Source: a bacterium (GTDB taxonomy: Bacteria > Armatimonadota > Zipacnadia > Zipacnadales > Zipacnadaceae). Taken from it: DNA of 64,000 nt. Within the stretch, counting starts at the first letter, position 1. The number at the start of each line of letters is the position of its first letter. The notes beneath the pieces are model-generated. The model had not been told where the DNA came from. It searched no databases and saw only the letters and a program-made list of their open reading frames with translations. The stretch spans positions 62,001 to 126,000 of the forward strand of contig JAUWYY010000008.1 of assembly GCA_030615605.1 (NCBI GenBank), in the 5' to 3' direction. Shown here piece by piece: positions 3,407 through 63,968 of this stretch. The position numbers were made by a program, and so were the translations under genes.

Positions 3407-5428
3407 CTATATGCCGATATCTATCATATTGCCGGTGTGCCCGGTCAGTTGGTCTATTACCAGCCATAGAGTTGTGGAGACATAGTATCCGCATATTAGT
3501 CCCAGGAAGACGGGCCGCAGGCGCTGGTAGCACTTCATACCGCCATAACGCAGCGCCAGGCCCTTCACCAACCACGCCACAAAGCAGGTAAACCACAGCC
3601 AATCCATACCGCCTATGCCCCCCAGGGCAAAGCCTATCGGATGAAAGGGCCACCACAGGAAGCGGAAGCGCATTGCCACCAGACTAACGTATATGGCTGC
3701 CCCCAACCCGGTGAGCAGGTGTCCGGTCAGACTGGGACCAGGACGCCTGGCGACCCAGTCAGCCGCCCAGGCAAGATGACGCTGGGGGCCCCGTACGAAC
3801 GCCCAACTGCTTGCGCCGCCCATCATACTCACTGCGCCCTGGTGATAGCCAGTTCGCGTCGTTATCCACATCGAGGAGAACAGTGCCACCAAAAAGGCTA
3901 TCCCAAACGCCCACAGCAGTCGCGGCTGCTTATCAGTGATGACCTGGGCCATCTTTAGAGTGTGGGCCACCGGAGTCATCACATACTGGCGACTGTCACT
4001 CGCCCATACATGAGCCATTAGTAGAGCCACTATTCCCCTGTTCCCCAGGGGTCCCCATCCCAACCAGCCGGCTACCACCGTCGCCGACCCGTACGGCGCC
4101 CATATCTCGGGCAAGCCACTTTCGGCGATGATTCGGGTCAGTCCGACGATGGCCACAAAGCCTATCACCAACAGGAATACCACTCCGATTACCGACAGCC
4201 CCGACATAACCAGCCACCAAGCCATTACAATCACGCAGCCTATCAATAGCCAGAAGGCGACTCGATAGGACAGCATTTCTCCGCTGTCGCCGCCGGGATC
4301 ACCTTGCCCCCTCGCTTCCGCCCAGATGTCCTTGAAGTGCCGGCGCGCCACCCACAGACCCGAGCCAACCAACGCGAGGAACGCTCCGGCACCAAGGTAC
4401 CGGAATATGGGGGTGCGTGCCCCTTGCTCACCTAGATTCTCAGTACTAGCGATGCCCAGGACATTAAGTATGGCTGAGACGAGCTGTTGGAGGAGATTGA
4501 AGAACCACAGACTGAAGTTGACGTCTAGGCTAACCAGATAGAGAAAGCCAAGTATCGGCAGGCTGATCCAGAAGGCGAACACTGCTTGCGGCAATAGTGG
4601 CGCGTCTAACATTATGCCCGTTGCGCGAATGCCGGGAAAAGAGGGAAAATAGTAGACCAGGCCTTTGGAACTGGTGACCAGCAGTGAGATGCCAAAACCT
4701 ACCCAAAACAACCCCCGCGAAAGTATCACCGGGCGGCCTCCGCTCTCGGCTCCTCCCAGCGCCAGCGGCAGGTAGGCAAGTGGATAGACCAGGTGTTCAT
4801 TCTCCACCCATTGCTTGCGCAACAACACTGCCATGCAAACCATAGCCAGGTGCAAGCAGAGCAAAAACACCAACCATGCCCCCAACGCCGGCAGCCAAGC
4901 CACCCACGGAACCTGAGCCCCGGGCGGCAAGCCCTCATACAGATGCGTTATCACTGGGGCGTTTTGCGCCGCTCCCCGCGGACTCAGCCATGGTGGGAGA
5001 TGAGGGAGTATGGTCTCGGCCCATTTGTTTTCCGGGCTGGCGTAGTAATAGGGTGCAGTGATCCACGGTACCAAGTAGTCGGTCAGCCCCGTCGTCACAA
5101 TGGTCGAAGCTACTGCCATCATACCGAAGATGACCACAATCTCGGCAGTAGTCAGTGCCAGCAGCTTGCGGAAGCGCAATAGCACTAGATTAGGTCCGGC
5201 AACTAAGAAAAACGTCAGCGCCACGGCAAATGGCCAGGTCGGGTACATGGTCATATACGAGCCATGCAGGCCGTGCTCGGCATAGGGTCCGGCCAGACCA
5301 ATGGCCAGCGCCCCTACTGCCCCAATAACCAGCGAACGCCTCGTTACAGCACGAGGGCCGTCGTCGGGCTCTGCTGAGCGTCCCAATGTGCCACGTTCTT
5401 TGTCGCGCGTGCTTGGAGTCACTTGCAT
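3407..5428 (-). CDS. DUF6785/6784-like polytopic membrane protein (copy 1)
   Basis: 673 aa, many TM segments; highly similar to the ORF at 5704-7719. Confidence 0.7.
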   Translation of the reverse strand: MQVTPSTRDKERGTLGRSAEPDDGPRAVTRRSLVIGAVGALAIGLAGPYAEHGLHGSYMTMYPTWPFAVALTFFLVAGPNLVLLRFRKLLALTTAEIVVIFGMMAVASTIVTTGLTDYLVPWITAPYYYASPENKWAETILPHLPPWLSPRGAAQNAPVITHLYEGLPPGAQVPWVAWLPALGAWLVFLLCLHLAMVCMAVLLRKQWVENEHLVYPLAYLPLALGGAESGGRPVILSRGLFWVGFGISLLVTSSKGLVYYFPSFPGIRATGIMLDAPLLPQAVFAFWISLPILGFLYLVSLDVNFSLWFFNLLQQLVSAILNVLGIASTENLGEQGARTPIFRYLGAGAFLALVGSGLWVARRHFKDIWAEARGQGDPGGDSGEMLSYRVAFWLLIGCVIVMAWWLVMSGLSVIGVVFLLVIGFVAIVGLTRIIAESGLPEIWAPYGSATVVAGWLGWGPLGNRGIVALLMAHVWASDSRQYVMTPVAHTLKMAQVITDKQPRLLWAFGIAFLVALFSSMWITTRTGYHQGAVSMMGGASSWAFVRGPQRHLAWAADWVARRPGPSLTGHLLTGLGAAIYVSLVAMRFRFLWWPFHPIGFALGGIGGMDWLWFTCFVAWLVKGLALRYGGMKCYQRLRPVFLGLICGYYVSTTLWLVIDQLTGHTGNMIDIGI

Positions 5429-5703: not shown

Positions 5704-7719
5704 CTACAGGCCGACATCTATCATATTGCCGGTGTGCCCGGTCAGTTGGTCTATTAACAGCCACAGAGTTGTGGAGACATAGTATCCGCATATTAGTCCC
5801 AGGAAGACGGGCCGCAGGCGCTGGTAGCACTTCATGCCGCCATAACGCAGTGCCAGGCCCTTCACCAGCCACGCCACAAAGCAGTCAAACCACAGCCAAT
5901 CTATTGGACCTACAGTCGCCAGGGCAAAGCCTATCGGATGCAAGGGCCACCACAGGAAGCGAAAGCGCATTGCCACCAGACTAAGGTATATAGCTGCTCC
6001 CAACCCGGTGAGCAGGTGTCCGGTCAGGCTGGGACCAGGACGCCTGGTGATCCAATCAGCCGCCCAGCTCATAAAACGGCGGGGTTCGGCTGTGAACGCC
6101 GAAGCGCTTGCGCCGCCCATCAGAGTCACTGCACCCCGGTGATAAGCAGTTCGCGTCGTTAGCCATATCGAGGAAAACAATGCCACCAAAAAGGCCAACC
6201 CAAACGCCCACAGCAGTCGCCGCTGCTTATGAGTGATGACCTGGGCCATCTTTAGAGTGTGGGTCACCGGGATCATCACATTCTGACGACTATCAATGGC
6301 CCATACATGAGCCATCATTAGAGCCACTATTCCCCTGTCGCCGAGCGGCTGCCATCCCAACCAGCCGGCTATCACCGGATACCCGGACGGCGCACTGGCC
6401 CCGGCCATGCCACTTTCGGCCATGATTCGGGTCACTCCGACGATGGCCACAAAGGCTATCACCAACAGGAACAGCATTCCGATTACTGACAGCCCCGACA
6501 TAACCAGCCACCAGGCCATTACCACCAGGCAGCCTATCAATAGCCAGAAGGCGACTCGGTAGGACAGAATCTCTCCGCTGTCGCCGCCGGGTTCACCTTG
6601 CCCCCTCGCTCGCGCCCAGATGTCCTTGAAGTGCCCGCGCGTTACCCACAGACCCGAGCCGACCAACCCGAGGAACGCTCCCGTACCTAAGTACTGGAAT
6701 ATGGGCGTACGCGCCCCTCCGCCCACACCTAGATTCTCAGTGCTGGTGATGCCCAGGACATTAAGTATAGCTCCGACGAGCTGTTGGAGGAGATTGAAGA
6801 ACCACACACTGAAGTTGACATCCAGGTTAACCAGATAGAGAAAGCCGAGCATCTGCACGTGGATCCAGAAGGCGAACACTGCTCCCGGCAATAGTGGCGC
6901 ATCTAGCATTATGCCCGTTTCCCGAATGCCGGGAAAAGAGGGAAAATAGTAGACCAGGCCTTTGGAACTGGTGACCAGCAGCGAGATGCCAAAACCTACC
7001 CAAAACAGCGCCCGGGAAAGTATCACGGGCCGGCCTCCGCTGTCGGCTCCTCCCAGCGCCAGCGGCAGGTAGGTAAATGGATAGGTCAGGTGTTCGTTCT
7101 CCACCCATTGCTTGCGCAACAACACTGCCATGCAGACCATAGCCAGGTGCAAGCAGAGCAAAAACACCAACCATGCTCCCAATGCCGGCAGCCAAGACAC
7201 CCACGGAACCTGAGCCCCGGGCGGCAAGCCCTCATACAGATGCGTTATCAACGGGGCGTTTTGCGCCGCTCCCCGCGGACTCAGCCACGGCACGAGATGA
7301 GGTAGTACGGTCTCGGCCCATTTGTTTTCCGGGCTGGCGTAGTAATAGGGTCCAGTGATCGTCGGTACCAAGTAGTCGGTCAAGCCGGTTGTTACAACTG
7401 TCGAGGCCACCGCCATCATACCGAAGATGACGATAATCTCGGCAGTAGTCAGTGCCAGCAGCTTGCGGAAGCGCAATAACACTAGATTAGGTCCGGCAAC
7501 TAAGAAAAACGTCAGCGCCACGGCAAATGGCCAGGTCGGGTACATGGTCATATACGAGCCATGCAGGCCGTGCTCGGCATAGGGTCCGCCCAGACCAACG
7601 GCCAGCGCCCCTACCGCCCCAATAACCAGCGAACGCCTCGTTACAGCACGAGCGCGGCCGTCGGACTCTCCTGAGCATCCCAAGCTGCCACGTTCTTTGT
7701 CGCGCGTGCTTGAAGTCAC
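5704..7719 (-). CDS. DUF6785/6784-like polytopic membrane protein (copy 2)
   Basis: 671 aa; close paralogue of the adjacent ORF 3407-5428; probable GTG start with GGAG upstream. Confidence 0.7.
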   Translation of the reverse strand: MTSSTRDKERGSLGCSGESDGRARAVTRRSLVIGAVGALAVGLGGPYAEHGLHGSYMTMYPTWPFAVALTFFLVAGPNLVLLRFRKLLALTTAEIIVIFGMMAVASTVVTTGLTDYLVPTITGPYYYASPENKWAETVLPHLVPWLSPRGAAQNAPLITHLYEGLPPGAQVPWVSWLPALGAWLVFLLCLHLAMVCMAVLLRKQWVENEHLTYPFTYLPLALGGADSGGRPVILSRALFWVGFGISLLVTSSKGLVYYFPSFPGIRETGIMLDAPLLPGAVFAFWIHVQMLGFLYLVNLDVNFSVWFFNLLQQLVGAILNVLGITSTENLGVGGGARTPIFQYLGTGAFLGLVGSGLWVTRGHFKDIWARARGQGEPGGDSGEILSYRVAFWLLIGCLVVMAWWLVMSGLSVIGMLFLLVIAFVAIVGVTRIMAESGMAGASAPSGYPVIAGWLGWQPLGDRGIVALMMAHVWAIDSRQNVMIPVTHTLKMAQVITHKQRRLLWAFGLAFLVALFSSIWLTTRTAYHRGAVTLMGGASASAFTAEPRRFMSWAADWITRRPGPSLTGHLLTGLGAAIYLSLVAMRFRFLWWPLHPIGFALATVGPIDWLWFDCFVAWLVKGLALRYGGMKCYQRLRPVFLGLICGYYVSTTLWLLIDQLTGHTGNMIDVGL

Positions 7720-58802: not shown

Positions 58803-59972
58803 TTGCGCCGCACAGAGTCACGGGAACAAGTCGTAGAAGAGGCACCGGAGCACACCACGAAAAAACGTGCAATTCTTCGGGATTACATGGGGGCGTGGCT
58901 TGGGATATTGGGGCGGGCTCCGTTCCCCAGTCTATGGTGGGTCGACTGTTTCGCAGGTCCCGGCTTAGGGCGGGACGCAAGCCGCACTACGGGCGCCCTA
59001 AGCGTAAGAATGAGCCAGCGGCTCCTGGAAAGCGGAGGAGCTCAGCGAGTTAGCTGCATAAACGTTGAAATGGATTCATCTTACTTCGACCGATTGATTT
59101 CGGTTATCAGCGATGACGGTATCCCATTGGAAAACCAGATCAACTGCCCACCCCTCGATAGAAGTGAGTGGTTTCAGCAAATCGCGGAGAGTGTATCCCC
59201 TTCCGGCGATGTTAATGTCTACAATTGCAATGCGGCATTTCAAGATGTTATAGATGGTATCGTTCATCACTTACCGAATCACTCGCAACCAAGTTTTTTC
59301 TTCATGGACCCATGGGGCTGGAGCCACGTGCCCTTTGCCACTATGCGAAGGGTATTGGCTAGAACGAAGGCAGAGGTCTTCCTCACATTCTTTGTCAAGC
59401 ACATTGCTCGTTTCCTAGAAAGCAGAGAACACATCCCTGTAATCAGCAATGTGCTCGGAACAGAAGCTTTCTCGGAGGCAATCGGCGCCCAGGGGCACGA
59501 ACGAGAGGAAGCAATATTGCGTATATATAAGGAACAATTGCACACAATAGGAGGATGCTTTGCAACGGAATACCGCATGATCCATACTAACATACGCCAA
59601 ACGGCGTACTACCTCCTACACGTATCCAAGCATCCCACAGCATTCGAGACGATGAAAGAGACTATGTGGCGGCACGGTACACCCGGGAGAGGGGCCTGCT
59701 ATGCAGGGCCGGACCATGCTCACCTATCTCAAACTAAACCCCTCTTCGACCCGGACACCTTCGAGTTGAAGCAGATACTGAGCCGAGACTTCGCTGGGCG
59801 AACCCTCACGCACACCGAGTTGAAGAAATGGGTATTGTGGGAGACAAGGTGGGTCTCGACCGTGCTGCGGGATTCGCTGCAAGAGCTGGAGCAGCACGAG
59901 GCAATACACGTTCAAGCAGATAGGAACCGAAGGAGCGGATTTCAAGACACTGACCTGATCACTTTCATGTGA
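58803..59972 (+). CDS. three-Cys-motif partner protein (TcmP-like)
   Basis: 389 aa; 'KKRAILRDYMGAWLGIL...LWWVDCFAGPGLG' SAM-methyltransferase-like motif, 'FFFMDPWGW'; TTG start with GGGAGGGG. Confidence 0.7.
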   Translation: MRRTESREQVVEEAPEHTTKKRAILRDYMGAWLGILGRAPFPSLWWVDCFAGPGLGRDASRTTGALSVRMSQRLLESGGAQRVSCINVEMDSSYFDRLISVISDDGIPLENQINCPPLDRSEWFQQIAESVSPSGDVNVYNCNAAFQDVIDGIVHHLPNHSQPSFFFMDPWGWSHVPFATMRRVLARTKAEVFLTFFVKHIARFLESREHIPVISNVLGTEAFSEAIGAQGHEREEAILRIYKEQLHTIGGCFATEYRMIHTNIRQTAYYLLHVSKHPTAFETMKETMWRHGTPGRGACYAGPDHAHLSQTKPLFDPDTFELKQILSRDFAGRTLTHTELKKWVLWETRWVSTVLRDSLQELEQHEAIHVQADRNRRSGFQDTDLITFM

Positions 59973-59987: not shown

Positions 59988-60965
59988 ATTCCCCTCACCG
60001 TATTCGAAAAAGGGTATACGAACCTGCTTGGAGAAGACGAGCCTAAGACGGAGCGCGTCAGCGATGGCTCGATAATCAAACGCTTCGACCTGACGCCATT
60101 CCCCCAAGAACCCGAAGATATTGTCTGCCCTCATTTCCTCGAGTTAAAGTGGGCAACTGGCTGTAACTATAACTGTGCCTGGTGCTATCTGCAGGGGACC
60201 TGCAGGATGCTGCCATACCGGACAAAGCTGCACGAAAAAGATCGCGGCAAGATTCGTCGCCACATGGAGACGTTACTCAGCCATAACGGAAGTAGCACCA
60301 ATTCGGCGAATGGCACAGAACTCCTGAACAGCGGAGAACTCGCCGACTCCCTGGCGGCTGAACACTCGCCTGAACCATTCTCCAGATTCATAGTCCCCCT
60401 GTTTGAAGGCCAAGAGCATTTCAAGCTGCTGATGCTCACCAAATCCGACTACATTGACAATCTGCTGACGGTCGAAGGGCAGCAGTCAACCATAGTCAGC
60501 TTTAGCGTGAACTCCCCCTATGTTTCGCAAAGGTGGGAGAAGGGCGCGCCGCCGCCAGAAAGAAGGCTTGCAGCCGCAGCACGATTGGCTGACGCTGGCT
60601 ACGAGGTACGGCTGCGCATTGACCCAATCGTGCCAGTGGCAAAATGGAAGCAGCGCTACCGGGGACTGCTTCAGCACATTCTTGACACCTTCCGGCCGGA
60701 ACGAATCACACTGGGGTCTTTACGAGGGCTGCAAAGCACAATCAATAACTGCCGTGACAAGTCTTGGACCGAGTTTCTCTCCGAAAAATCGCCGTGGGGC
60801 AAGCGCGTCGAATCAGACCTCCGGCTTGAGACCTTTGCCTACATCATAGAGCTACTAAGACACGATTGGGGATATTCCGACGTGGCCCTGTGCAAAGAGC
60901 CGGTAGCAATGTGGGATGGGCTGGGCCTGAATTACAAGAAGATTCGCTGTAATTGCATAGCGTAG
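59988..60965 (+). CDS. SPL-family (spore photoproduct lyase-like) radical SAM protein, probable ATT start
   Basis: 'CPHFLELKWATGCNYNCAWCYLQGTC' (CX3CX2C cluster motif), 'VSFSVNSPYVSQRWEKGAPPPERRLAAAARLADAGYEVRLRIDPIVPV'; open frame extends upstream of the tracked ORF to the TcmP stop codon. Confidence 0.75.
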   Translation: MPLTVFEKGYTNLLGEDEPKTERVSDGSIIKRFDLTPFPQEPEDIVCPHFLELKWATGCNYNCAWCYLQGTCRMLPYRTKLHEKDRGKIRRHMETLLSHNGSSTNSANGTELLNSGELADSLAAEHSPEPFSRFIVPLFEGQEHFKLLMLTKSDYIDNLLTVEGQQSTIVSFSVNSPYVSQRWEKGAPPPERRLAAAARLADAGYEVRLRIDPIVPVAKWKQRYRGLLQHILDTFRPERITLGSLRGLQSTINNCRDKSWTEFLSEKSPWGKRVESDLRLETFAYIIELLRHDWGYSDVALCKEPVAMWDGLGLNYKKIRCNCIA

Positions 60966-61187: not shown

Positions 61188-62543
61188 TCAGACTACTTCC
61201 AGGAGGCTGGCGGCGGCGCGGAAGTCGGTGTTTAGTACCTGCTTGACCTCGCCGGCGAAGCGGCGCAGCATCCCCGAAACCTCTTCAACGTCAACACCGC
61301 TCATAGCCAAGTCTAACAGCCGGGGGTATTCCATCAGCAGTTCCTCGTCGGTGTGAGTGAGGACCGTCGAGGCCTGGGTGAGCAGAGCCACCAGATTGGT
61401 GAAGGCGTCGGTGCCGCTGTGGGCCAAGGGGTCGCCGAGGAGGTCCATCATATAGGCTTCGTCGGGCAGGCCAGCGGCGAGCATAGAAAGGCGGCGCAGC
61501 AGGCAGGGAATACAGCCGCCGCACTGGCGATGTTTGCGACCGGCCATCCAGCAGGAAACTGTCTTCTGTAGGTCCAGAGGGCTGAGCACCGGCCGCAGAA
61601 AGTCGCTGATAAGCTCGGCCTTGGTTTGATATATGAAGGGATTCTGCACCCGGCAGCTCCAGCCGGCCTGCTTACAGAGCCTGTTGAACTGGTTGATGAC
61701 GCCCGGGTCGGTGCTGCGGGTAGAGAAGCTGCCGATGCGGGCGCGGGTCAGCGGCAGGGCGGCGGTGAGCACGCCATTCTCGGGAAGGTAGACCTCTTCA
61801 AGCCCGGCGGTAGCGGCAGCGACCGCACCCAGCACCATAAACAGTAGCGAGCGGACTCGGCGGGAGTCTTCGCGGTTTTCCGGCTCAGGGAAGGGCAGCG
61901 CCTCCTCGCGGCTGGTATCGGGCGCGGCATGCACTGCGCTGGTCAGATGGTGGGCTGGCCAATTGTTGCGCAGCACGGTGACGACGCTATCCTGGGCCTG
62001 GCGTACCGTGGGATTGCCCGAATAGTGCAGGATAAGATGCGGTCGGCGCTTGGCCTCGAGCAACATTGCCGCGCCGGCCAATGAGTCAACCCCTCCGGAG
62101 AGCAGGCTCACGCAATCCGCCTCGAAGTCAACAGAGCGTTCATCTGCGGCAGGTTCATCTTGCTCGTCGGCGCGCGGCAGAAAAGCGAGGATGAAATTGT
62201 CGCCAGTTAGACGCTGGACCAGCCCGATGAGCAGACCGGCGTTGGCCTGCCAGAAATCAAGCTCACGCACGACCAGACACAGGTCGATGTCGCGGACCCA
62301 CTGCTCGTTGCGTCCGCGGGGGACGGCGATATCAGCCAGAAAGATACCAGTGGCGACATCCACAAAGTCGCAGGCCAGCGGGCTAAGGGGAGCAGGCAGG
62401 TGCCGCCGCAGCTCTGTTAGGGTAATGAGGGCGTTGCGGCGGGGTGAGCGCCAGTCCAGCAGCCAATCGGCGGCCTCCGGATCACACGGGCCGACCAGAT
62501 CAGAGTCATCTGCTCCCTCAATTTGCAGCACCCGTACAGGCAC
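61188..62543 (-). CDS. QueC-like 7-cyano-7-deazaguanine synthase paralogue, QatC-like
   Basis: PP-loop 'VSLLSGGVDSLAGAAMLL'; 'PENGVLTAALPLTRARIGSFSTRSTDP'; zinc site 'SCWMAGRKHRQCGGCIPCLLRR'; GTG start 4 nt after the upstream gene. Confidence 0.75.
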   Translation of the reverse strand: MPVRVLQIEGADDSDLVGPCDPEAADWLLDWRSPRRNALITLTELRRHLPAPLSPLACDFVDVATGIFLADIAVPRGRNEQWVRDIDLCLVVRELDFWQANAGLLIGLVQRLTGDNFILAFLPRADEQDEPAADERSVDFEADCVSLLSGGVDSLAGAAMLLEAKRRPHLILHYSGNPTVRQAQDSVVTVLRNNWPAHHLTSAVHAAPDTSREEALPFPEPENREDSRRVRSLLFMVLGAVAAATAGLEEVYLPENGVLTAALPLTRARIGSFSTRSTDPGVINQFNRLCKQAGWSCRVQNPFIYQTKAELISDFLRPVLSPLDLQKTVSCWMAGRKHRQCGGCIPCLLRRLSMLAAGLPDEAYMMDLLGDPLAHSGTDAFTNLVALLTQASTVLTHTDEELLMEYPRLLDLAMSGVDVEEVSGMLRRFAGEVKQVLNTDFRAAASLLEVV

Positions 62544-62546
62544 CGT

Positions 62547-63311
62547 TTATGCTCCTCCGACCAGAACATCCAACCCGGCAGCAACGCCCTCAACAATCAC
62601 CGGCTCCAGCAGCCTAATGCGCTCGGCGGTGGCCAACTGCACCGATTCCTGGAGCTGATCCTCGAAGCCAGCCAAACTTACTGTGGCAGTGGTATCGCGG
62701 CAATATCGGGCTACCTCGTCAAGCAGTCGAGAACTGTGGCTGACAGTGGGGAAGGCCTCCGTGCCCACAAAATCATCAATATCACGAGCCACAAAGTAGC
62801 GGAAGACCTGGTCAAAGTCGTGACCCAATAACCGCTCGCCAAGTGCCGTGAGGTTTCGTTCGGTGAAATAACGGCCGAAGTTGGCTTCGACCTGGGCAGG
62901 CTCTGCCTGGAGGATGCCTCGGCCACCAGCAGCGACATCCATAACGGTGTTGCTGAGGGCATCCAGAGCCAGTTCGCCGAAGCGCGAACTTACCTGGGCT
63001 TCGATGATACGCTGCTGGGCCTGATCCCGCAGCAGAGCAGCCAAAGATACAACCGGAGCAGCGGCGAAGGCCGGGGCACCGGCTAACAGCTCGGAAAGGC
63101 CCTGCGTAGCCATCTGATAGCTGCCCGACAGCAGGGCATCGAGGTCGTAGACTACACTGGGCCCGCGCATCTGCTGGCGGGTCTCGGGGCTGAGCGCCGC
63201 CACGATCCGTCCGACTACCTCACCAGGCAGAGGATTAGGCTGCCTGTAAAGTTCTCTTACCCGCTCCCATTCAGGGGTCGCAGGCGAGCGGTGTGCGGTT
63301 GATGTTCCCAT
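62547..63311 (-). CDS. QatB-like protein
   Basis: 254 aa from ATG 63311 ('MGTSTAHRSPATPEWERVRELYRQP...'); immediately upstream of the QueC-like gene; QatB assignment rests on position and the MGTS-type N-terminus. Confidence 0.5.
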   Translation of the reverse strand: MGTSTAHRSPATPEWERVRELYRQPNPLPGEVVGRIVAALSPETRQQMRGPSVVYDLDALLSGSYQMATQGLSELLAGAPAFAAAPVVSLAALLRDQAQQRIIEAQVSSRFGELALDALSNTVMDVAAGGRGILQAEPAQVEANFGRYFTERNLTALGERLLGHDFDQVFRYFVARDIDDFVGTEAFPTVSHSSRLLDEVARYCRDTTATVSLAGFEDQLQESVQLATAERIRLLEPVIVEGVAAGLDVLVGGA

Positions 63312-63590: not shown

Positions 63591-63968
63591 TTATCCACAA
63601 TTAGGGTCTGGTTTTCCCAGAGTTTTCCACAAGGGGGTGTGGCGACAGGAGATAATAGGCCACGGGTCACAGAGCGGAAGCGCCGATCCGTTTGCGGCTG
63701 ATGTGAGGGACTTATCTGCTAGGAGGAGGATAATCCTGGTGTTGGAGTAAATTAGCGTACTGAGGAGAAGAAGATGCAGCACATATAAGGTCGTTGAGGC
63801 TGTCACCAGGGGTTGATTTACTCGATCAGGGACCACTTTGGAAAAATTTCTAGTAATCTTGGGATTTATTGGTTTTTCCTCTTTACATTGATTTTAATTT
63901 GTGTTATACTTACTCTACATCTGGGAGGGCCCGCGTTTTCCACATTTGTGGATAAGTATTGTGGAAAA
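63591..63968. other. candidate replication origin: DnaA-box-like cluster with AT-rich region
   Basis: TTATCCACA 63591-63599; TTTTCCACA 63623-63631; TTTTCCACA 63936-63944; TGTGGATAA 63947-63955; TGTGGAAAA 63960-63968; AT-rich segment ~63836-63925. Confidence 0.6.

Follow-up and report, generated by a model that had tools for sequence, protein, structure and literature searches.

We analysed a 64,000-nucleotide stretch of DNA (positions 62001-126000 of contig C54; "the window") from a 2.89-Mb, 93% complete genome of Candidatus Zipacnadia, a class of the Armatimonadota, and describe a pair of adjacent genes near its end that resemble qatB and qatC, the minimal core of the anti-phage Qat system. 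Both open reading frames listed in the first-pass annotation were found on the minus strand. The upstream gene (qatB-like; 62547..63311, minus strand) has an ATG start and encodes a 254-residue protein with an MGTS N-terminus, the putative substrate of QatC. The downstream gene (qatC-like; 61188..62543, minus strand) has a GTG start and encodes a 451-residue ATP-dependent ligase of the QueC fold, extended at both the N- and the C-terminus. The qatB stop codon lies 3 nt ahead of the qatC GTG and the sequence GGAGGAG lies inside the 3′ end of qatB, so the two genes are likely to be translationally coupled, as had been suggested. The spacing is 3 nt in every relative from the window's genus (g1) and its sister genus (g2), and tight coupling of qatB to qatC occurs in nearly all pairs of the class. 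Our survey covered 46 genomes of the class (25 with at least 90% completeness) and 245 other genomes of the phylum; genome-wide calls of presence or absence are based on family searches.

The hidden Markov model (HMM) searches that the first-pass annotation had called for gave QatC as the best match of the 451-residue protein. It matched the NCBIfam QatC model (NF041925) with E=3.6e-65 and 220.4 bits, short of the curated cut-off of 280 bits, and the PADLOC QatC model with E=5e-59; phmmer against the solved QatC sequence gave E=3e-34. The biosynthetic QueC model TIGR00364 failed at 17.6 bits (cut-off 150.3), and QueC models gave E-values of only 0.002 and 6e-5. An AlphaFold2 model (pLDDT 48) was compared with the PDB using Foldseek, and the top two matches were chains 9y02_B and 9y01_B of the P. 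aeruginosa QatB-QatC complex (435-453 columns, the whole length; probability 1.00; TM ~0.47), with Cap9 third and QueC 28th. The whole-length alignment to the QatC chains places both extensions on either side of the QueC core. Judged by its sequence, the protein is thus a clear QatC homologue that falls outside the NF041925 equivalog. A misannotated biosynthetic QueC that makes preQ0 would also have the QueC fold, the PP-loop, the zinc site and the weak Pfam QueC match that we see, but the failed TIGR00364 search, the fold ranking and a separate bona fide queD-queC pair on contig C7 of the same genome leave this explanation next to no likelihood. The window has neither queD, as the annotation noted, nor queC, although the C7 pair means that they are not missing from the genome. 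Canonical QatC, for its part, cannot complement an E. coli queC deletion (PMC13329287).

The active-site residues of QatC are well preserved. The PP-loop SGGVDS (residues 149-154; 62082..62099, minus strand) and the full four-Cys zinc site noted earlier (C331, C341, C344 and C347; 61503..61553, minus strand) are visible both directly and by alignment, as is, by alignment, the QatC-specific active-site loop PENG..LTRARIGSFSTRSTDP (residues 254-280; 61704..61784, minus strand). Aligned with QatCs from plasmids and from the phylum, the protein keeps the PP-loop SGGxDS, RxRSxxF, ENG, P-x4-TK and the four Cys. Thr275 and Ser277 occupy the positions of T278 and T280 of P. aeruginosa QatC, where SGGxDS and T278/T280 are essential (PMC13279940). 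Across the class, the catalytic residues (SGGxDS, RxRSxxF, ENG, the T278 position, TK and the four Cys) are retained with a few substitutions. Thr occupies the T278 position in all of the class, most of the order has Ser at the T280 position, and an HP motif has become DP in the window's genus. The first Cys spacing in the window protein is x9, versus x19 in canonical QatC.

The partner protein is recognisable by its N-terminal tail. Searches of HMM libraries and of PDB sequences with the 254-residue protein returned nothing credible. Its tail, MGTSTAHRSPATPEW, carries MGTS and a conserved P-x-W; by alignment, the conserved stretch MGTS..RSP.TPEW..VRELY spans codons 1-23 (63243..63311, minus strand). 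MGTS is present in 33/33 aligned class QatB sequences, and MGTS together with W15 is invariant across 34 sequences. Nine of the 12 invariant columns of these 34 homologues fall in residues 1-22 (P=9e-9), while the protein is otherwise 33% conserved. MGTS and P-x-W are functionally essential features of the canonical QatB tail, and G2D or loss of residues 16-22 abolishes defence (PMC13279940). A profile comparison (HH) of the class QatB with 13 canonical QatBs gave 91.8%, but 2.4% after trimming of the N-terminal 24 residues (column-shuffled control profiles, <1%); the likeness to canonical QatB is therefore the tail. The earlier assignment to QatB, made from gene position, thus holds for position and for the MGTS tail, and finds no detectable sequence support in the body of the protein. 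After the same cut, the class QatB body proved homologous (97-98%) to the partner family of a second type of pair ("MGH-type", see below).

No qatA or qatD lies beside the pair or in the remainder of the contig, which was read up to 136,422, so the four-gene arrangement does not resume just outside the window. The reported lack of a KAP ATPase and a TatD nuclease nearby extends to the genome: family searches found no KAP NTPase anywhere, and the single weak TatD-type match is on another contig (C22). Throughout the class, the flanks of the pair, followed for ~9 kb or to the contig end where that came first, yielded neither homologues nor relics of QatA or QatD; KAP occurs in 12/46 class genomes, in none of them near the pair. 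Elsewhere in the phylum, four-gene qatABCD operons were detected in other families (L085, L086, L088 and L089), and they were also detected on plasmids; the method therefore sees QatA and QatD when they are present. These operons would fit a remnant left after qatA and qatD were lost from an ancestral qatABCD operon. Against such decay stand the missing relics, the intact motifs, the purifying selection described below and the two-gene form in all families of the class, and we consider it very improbable. The lack of QatA and QatD is also less odd than the first-pass annotation took it to be, because QatBC alone suffices for defence against phage lambda-vir (PMC13279940). In a published survey, only about one QatC-cluster gene in three had qatA nearby (PMC13329287), so the two-gene arrangement may be more common than assumed.

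The layout first described as a two-gene cassette is real, although it is not a local feature: it is class-wide. QatC was found in 39/46 class genomes, QatB in 40/46 and either in 42/46; among the 25 genomes of at least 90% completeness the pair is present in 24, G263 being the sole exception. Outside the class, 9/245 phylum genomes have a QatC-type match (beyond 1e-10). The recurrence in the class is far beyond chance. In two genomes (G278 and G279), QatB is truncated by the contig end, upstream of dnaA. Two apparent B-C fusions (long QatC reading frames in L079 and L080) were rejected as start-codon artefacts, QatB sitting in another frame. The QatC and DnaA trees have 18/30 splits in common (the best of 1000 shuffles reached 3), both recover families f1, f2, f3 and f5, and the Mantel r between them is 0.85 (permutation maximum 0.65). 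Among close relatives, dN/dS (omega) is 0.12-0.17 for both genes, and the protein identity of the pair keeps pace with that of dnaN, thiL and HAD. The pair is a vertically inherited core gene pair under purifying selection.

The pair of the window lies next to the replication origin. dnaA starts 181 bp beyond the window end, divergent from qatB, and the intergenic region contains six DnaA boxes versus ~0.04 expected by shuffling: a cluster of five at 63591..63968 (unstranded; oriC) and one at 64158. In genera g1 and g2 the pair is divergent from dnaA-dnaN-recF across oriC (this gene order is seen in L007). We first read adjacency to dnaA as a class trait, but it is restricted to these two genera; in G258 the pair is ~6 kb from dnaA, and in other class genomes it adjoins other housekeeping genes such as lepA and pyrD. 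The position at oriC is therefore a feature of the lineage and no part of the mechanism. A class-wide survey of neighbours for a conserved functional or physiological partner gene found none; the main recurrent neighbour other than QatB is a convergent GNAT acetyltransferase gene (families f3, f5 and f7).

Some neighbours are particular to the window genome. Between thiL and qatC, and in this genome only, lie a gene for a TcmP protein (three-Cys-motif partner; PADLOC candidate PDC-M30A; 58803-59972, plus strand) and, after it, a radical SAM gene that resembles spore photoproduct lyase and carries CNYNCAWC (~59990-60965, plus strand); other members of the genus have a membrane protein or a different gene in this interval. 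Further away, 3407-5428 and 5704-7719 (minus strand) encode tandem near-duplicate 670-residue multi-spanning membrane proteins.

There are at least two possibilities for what such a core pair does. One is domestication: the class ancestor would have captured QatBC, and modified QatB would now regulate a host process such as replication, DNA damage or translation. The near-universal presence in the class versus sporadic QatC matches elsewhere, the agreement with the DnaA tree, an evolutionary rate about that of dnaN, thiL and HAD and the fixed position beside oriC in two sister genera all speak for it. So does a hint of damage control in family f3, where three genomes encode QatBs of 428-436 residues with a C-terminal Peptidase_S24 domain of the LexA/UmuD type (L064:4073-5383, L070:7126-8412 and L073:2371-3660; E 6e-12 and 7e-13 in the two of three scanned). 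The motifs GRSMEP/GQSMEP and YTVKRYES probably supply a Ser/Lys dyad, an Ala-Gly (Val-Gly in L073) is found near the start of the S24 domain, and the fusion suggests control by autocleavage. Weighing on the other side, no conserved physiological partner accompanies the pair (its main recurrent neighbour is the GNAT gene), the oriC linkage is confined to g1 and g2, and the residues that matter for defence are kept. We regard a housekeeping role as unlikely, albeit one that must be taken seriously.

The second possibility, which we favour with modest confidence, is that this stand-alone QatB-QatC module, a vertically inherited core pair of the class, works as a resident antiviral or stress-response unit without QatA or QatD. 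We favour it because two-gene QatBC suffices in the laboratory and because the nearest relatives carry defence effectors (see below). By analogy with the canonical system, the two proteins would form a complex in which QatB is modified at its N-terminus, and defence would follow. Removal of Met1 would bare Gly2 of QatB at the tip of the flexible tail GTS..RSP.TPEW, which would enter the active site of QatC. Using ATP, QatC would then activate a small-molecule donor at its carboxylate and couple the donor to Gly2, a step modelled on Cap9, which joins 7-carboxy-7-deazaguanine (CDG) to its CD-NTase. Modified QatB, predicted to be all-helical, could be the active species or a signal. Modification of Gly2 is transferred here from the solved system and is consistent with the conservation seen in the class.

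Several observations weigh against a defence role. Core status is a real counter-argument: it is unusual in anti-phage systems, as are agreement with the DnaA tree and an omega of 0.12-0.17. The surroundings are housekeeping genes (dnaA, lepA, pyrD and lipoamide dehydrogenase). The class-type pair was not found in phage or viral collections, nor the class QatB in a plasmid search. Finally, profile comparison detects no sequence similarity between the class QatB body and canonical QatB, and the AlphaFold2 model of QatB (6 sequences; predicted all-helical) has a pLDDT of 37, too poor to compare.

Which donor is used is a question common to the defence and the housekeeping reading. Nearly all good class genomes outside family f10 have queC and queD, whereas the two f10 genomes (G249, 98% complete, and G250, 90%) have no QueD and, for QueC and QueE, only partial generic PP-loop or radical-SAM matches. 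The QatC motifs are nevertheless kept in both, and the MGTS QatB in G249 (loci L082 and L083). The Tyr/Asp pair that recognises CDG in QueC and Cap9 is missing from QatC, whose activity could not be reconstituted in vitro (PMC13279940); in our alignment, the window QatC has Thr/Ser at these positions. With no visible CDG pathway in f10 and the Tyr/Asp pair lost, the donor may therefore not be CDG, and QatC would activate another carboxylate. We put this forward tentatively, as rather less likely than not: the evidence comes from just two genomes, both of one genus, metagenome-assembled genomes can miss genes, uptake of CDG or preQ0 is possible, and nearly all other good genomes of the class have queC and queD. 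A still wider view, that the class has come to rely on N-terminal protein modification of the QueC type as an essential or near-essential core function, away from phage defence, perhaps with a non-CDG donor and with LexA-like autoproteolytic control in one family, seems to us distinctly doubtful.

The MGH-type pairs, of which we found no description in the literature searched, carry effectors fused to QatC. In two (L090:7232-9157 and L091:5970-7907), QatC ends in a ThsB-like TIR domain (E=9e-52); their partners (L090:9154-9933 and L091:7904-8680) begin MGHERxGxLPKSxxW, and QatC-TIR with its MGH partner is a putative two-gene defence unit. In three others with MGH-type partners, QatC has a C-terminal DpnII/MboI-like nuclease, above the Pfam cut-off in L095 (8030-9937) and a Leptospira plasmid (L152:2938-4803) and below it in L087 (7486-9237). 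On two rhizobial plasmids (L147 and L148), a QatBC-like pair with an MGS-starting partner is followed by an ASCH-domain gene, and in L147 a CHAT-domain gene precedes the pair. Gly2 thus recurs in partners that are otherwise unlike; the exception is L149, a helix-turn-helix-associated pair whose partner is annotated with an MS start. Separately, an out-of-class genome (G142; L084:7890-14408) has a two-gene QatBC beside a 1028-residue TmtA-like protein and two uncharacterised proteins, a locus that looks like a defence operon and speaks for the defence reading.

The 2026 papers leave open which group QatB receives from QatC and how QatA and QatD contribute. For these questions, a class that has retained just QatB and QatC, in its core genome, offers a natural minimal system, and family f10, without a visible CDG pathway, is a direct handle on the donor. 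Judging by the S24, TIR and nuclease fusions, QatB-QatC may be a portable module for sensing or licensing that serves several outputs. The pair also advises caution, since defence annotation through QatC homology can label housekeeping-like loci.

In the literature searched, we found no published description of the two-gene QatBC form of this class. Compared with known systems, the new elements are the core-gene status, the housekeeping surroundings, the QatB-S24 fusion in one family, the related fusions of QatC to TIR and nuclease domains, and a single family with QatBC and no detectable queD, queC or queE. With biosynthetic QueC, the window QatC shares the PP-loop and zinc-site scaffold; it differs in failing the QueC model and in coexisting with a true queC elsewhere in the genome. 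Cap9-CdnD of type IV CBASS (NDG modification; PMC11996544) likewise combines a QueC-like enzyme, here third in the fold ranking, with a substrate starting MG(G/T)S; here, however, the CDG-recognising Tyr/Asp are replaced, and the neighbouring genes that were read include no recognisable CD-NTase. The MGH-type pairs share the B-to-C layout, a homologous partner body, the N-terminal MG, an L-P-K-like tail and a conserved W, but their QatC has a C-terminal effector domain and they are scattered rather than core. Canonical QatBC of P. aeruginosa and E. coli (PMC13279940, PMC13329287) shares the QatC fold with both extensions, SGGxDS, RxRxxxF, the T278-type threonine, P-x4-TK and the zinc site, and a small, predicted all-helical partner directly upstream with the MGTS...P-x-W tail; all motifs of PF06508 cluster 2, the QatC family (SGGxDS, RxRxxxF/Y, ExG, P(x)4TK and four Cys), are present in the 451-residue protein. 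The class pair differs from it in lacking QatA and QatD, in a QatC under the equivalog cut-off with Ser at the T280 position, DP for HP in the window's genus and a Cys spacing of x9 for x19, and in a QatB with a short tail (~25 residues) and a body not recognisably homologous. Canonical Qat is sporadic or plasmid-borne, whereas the pair described here is core and vertically inherited.
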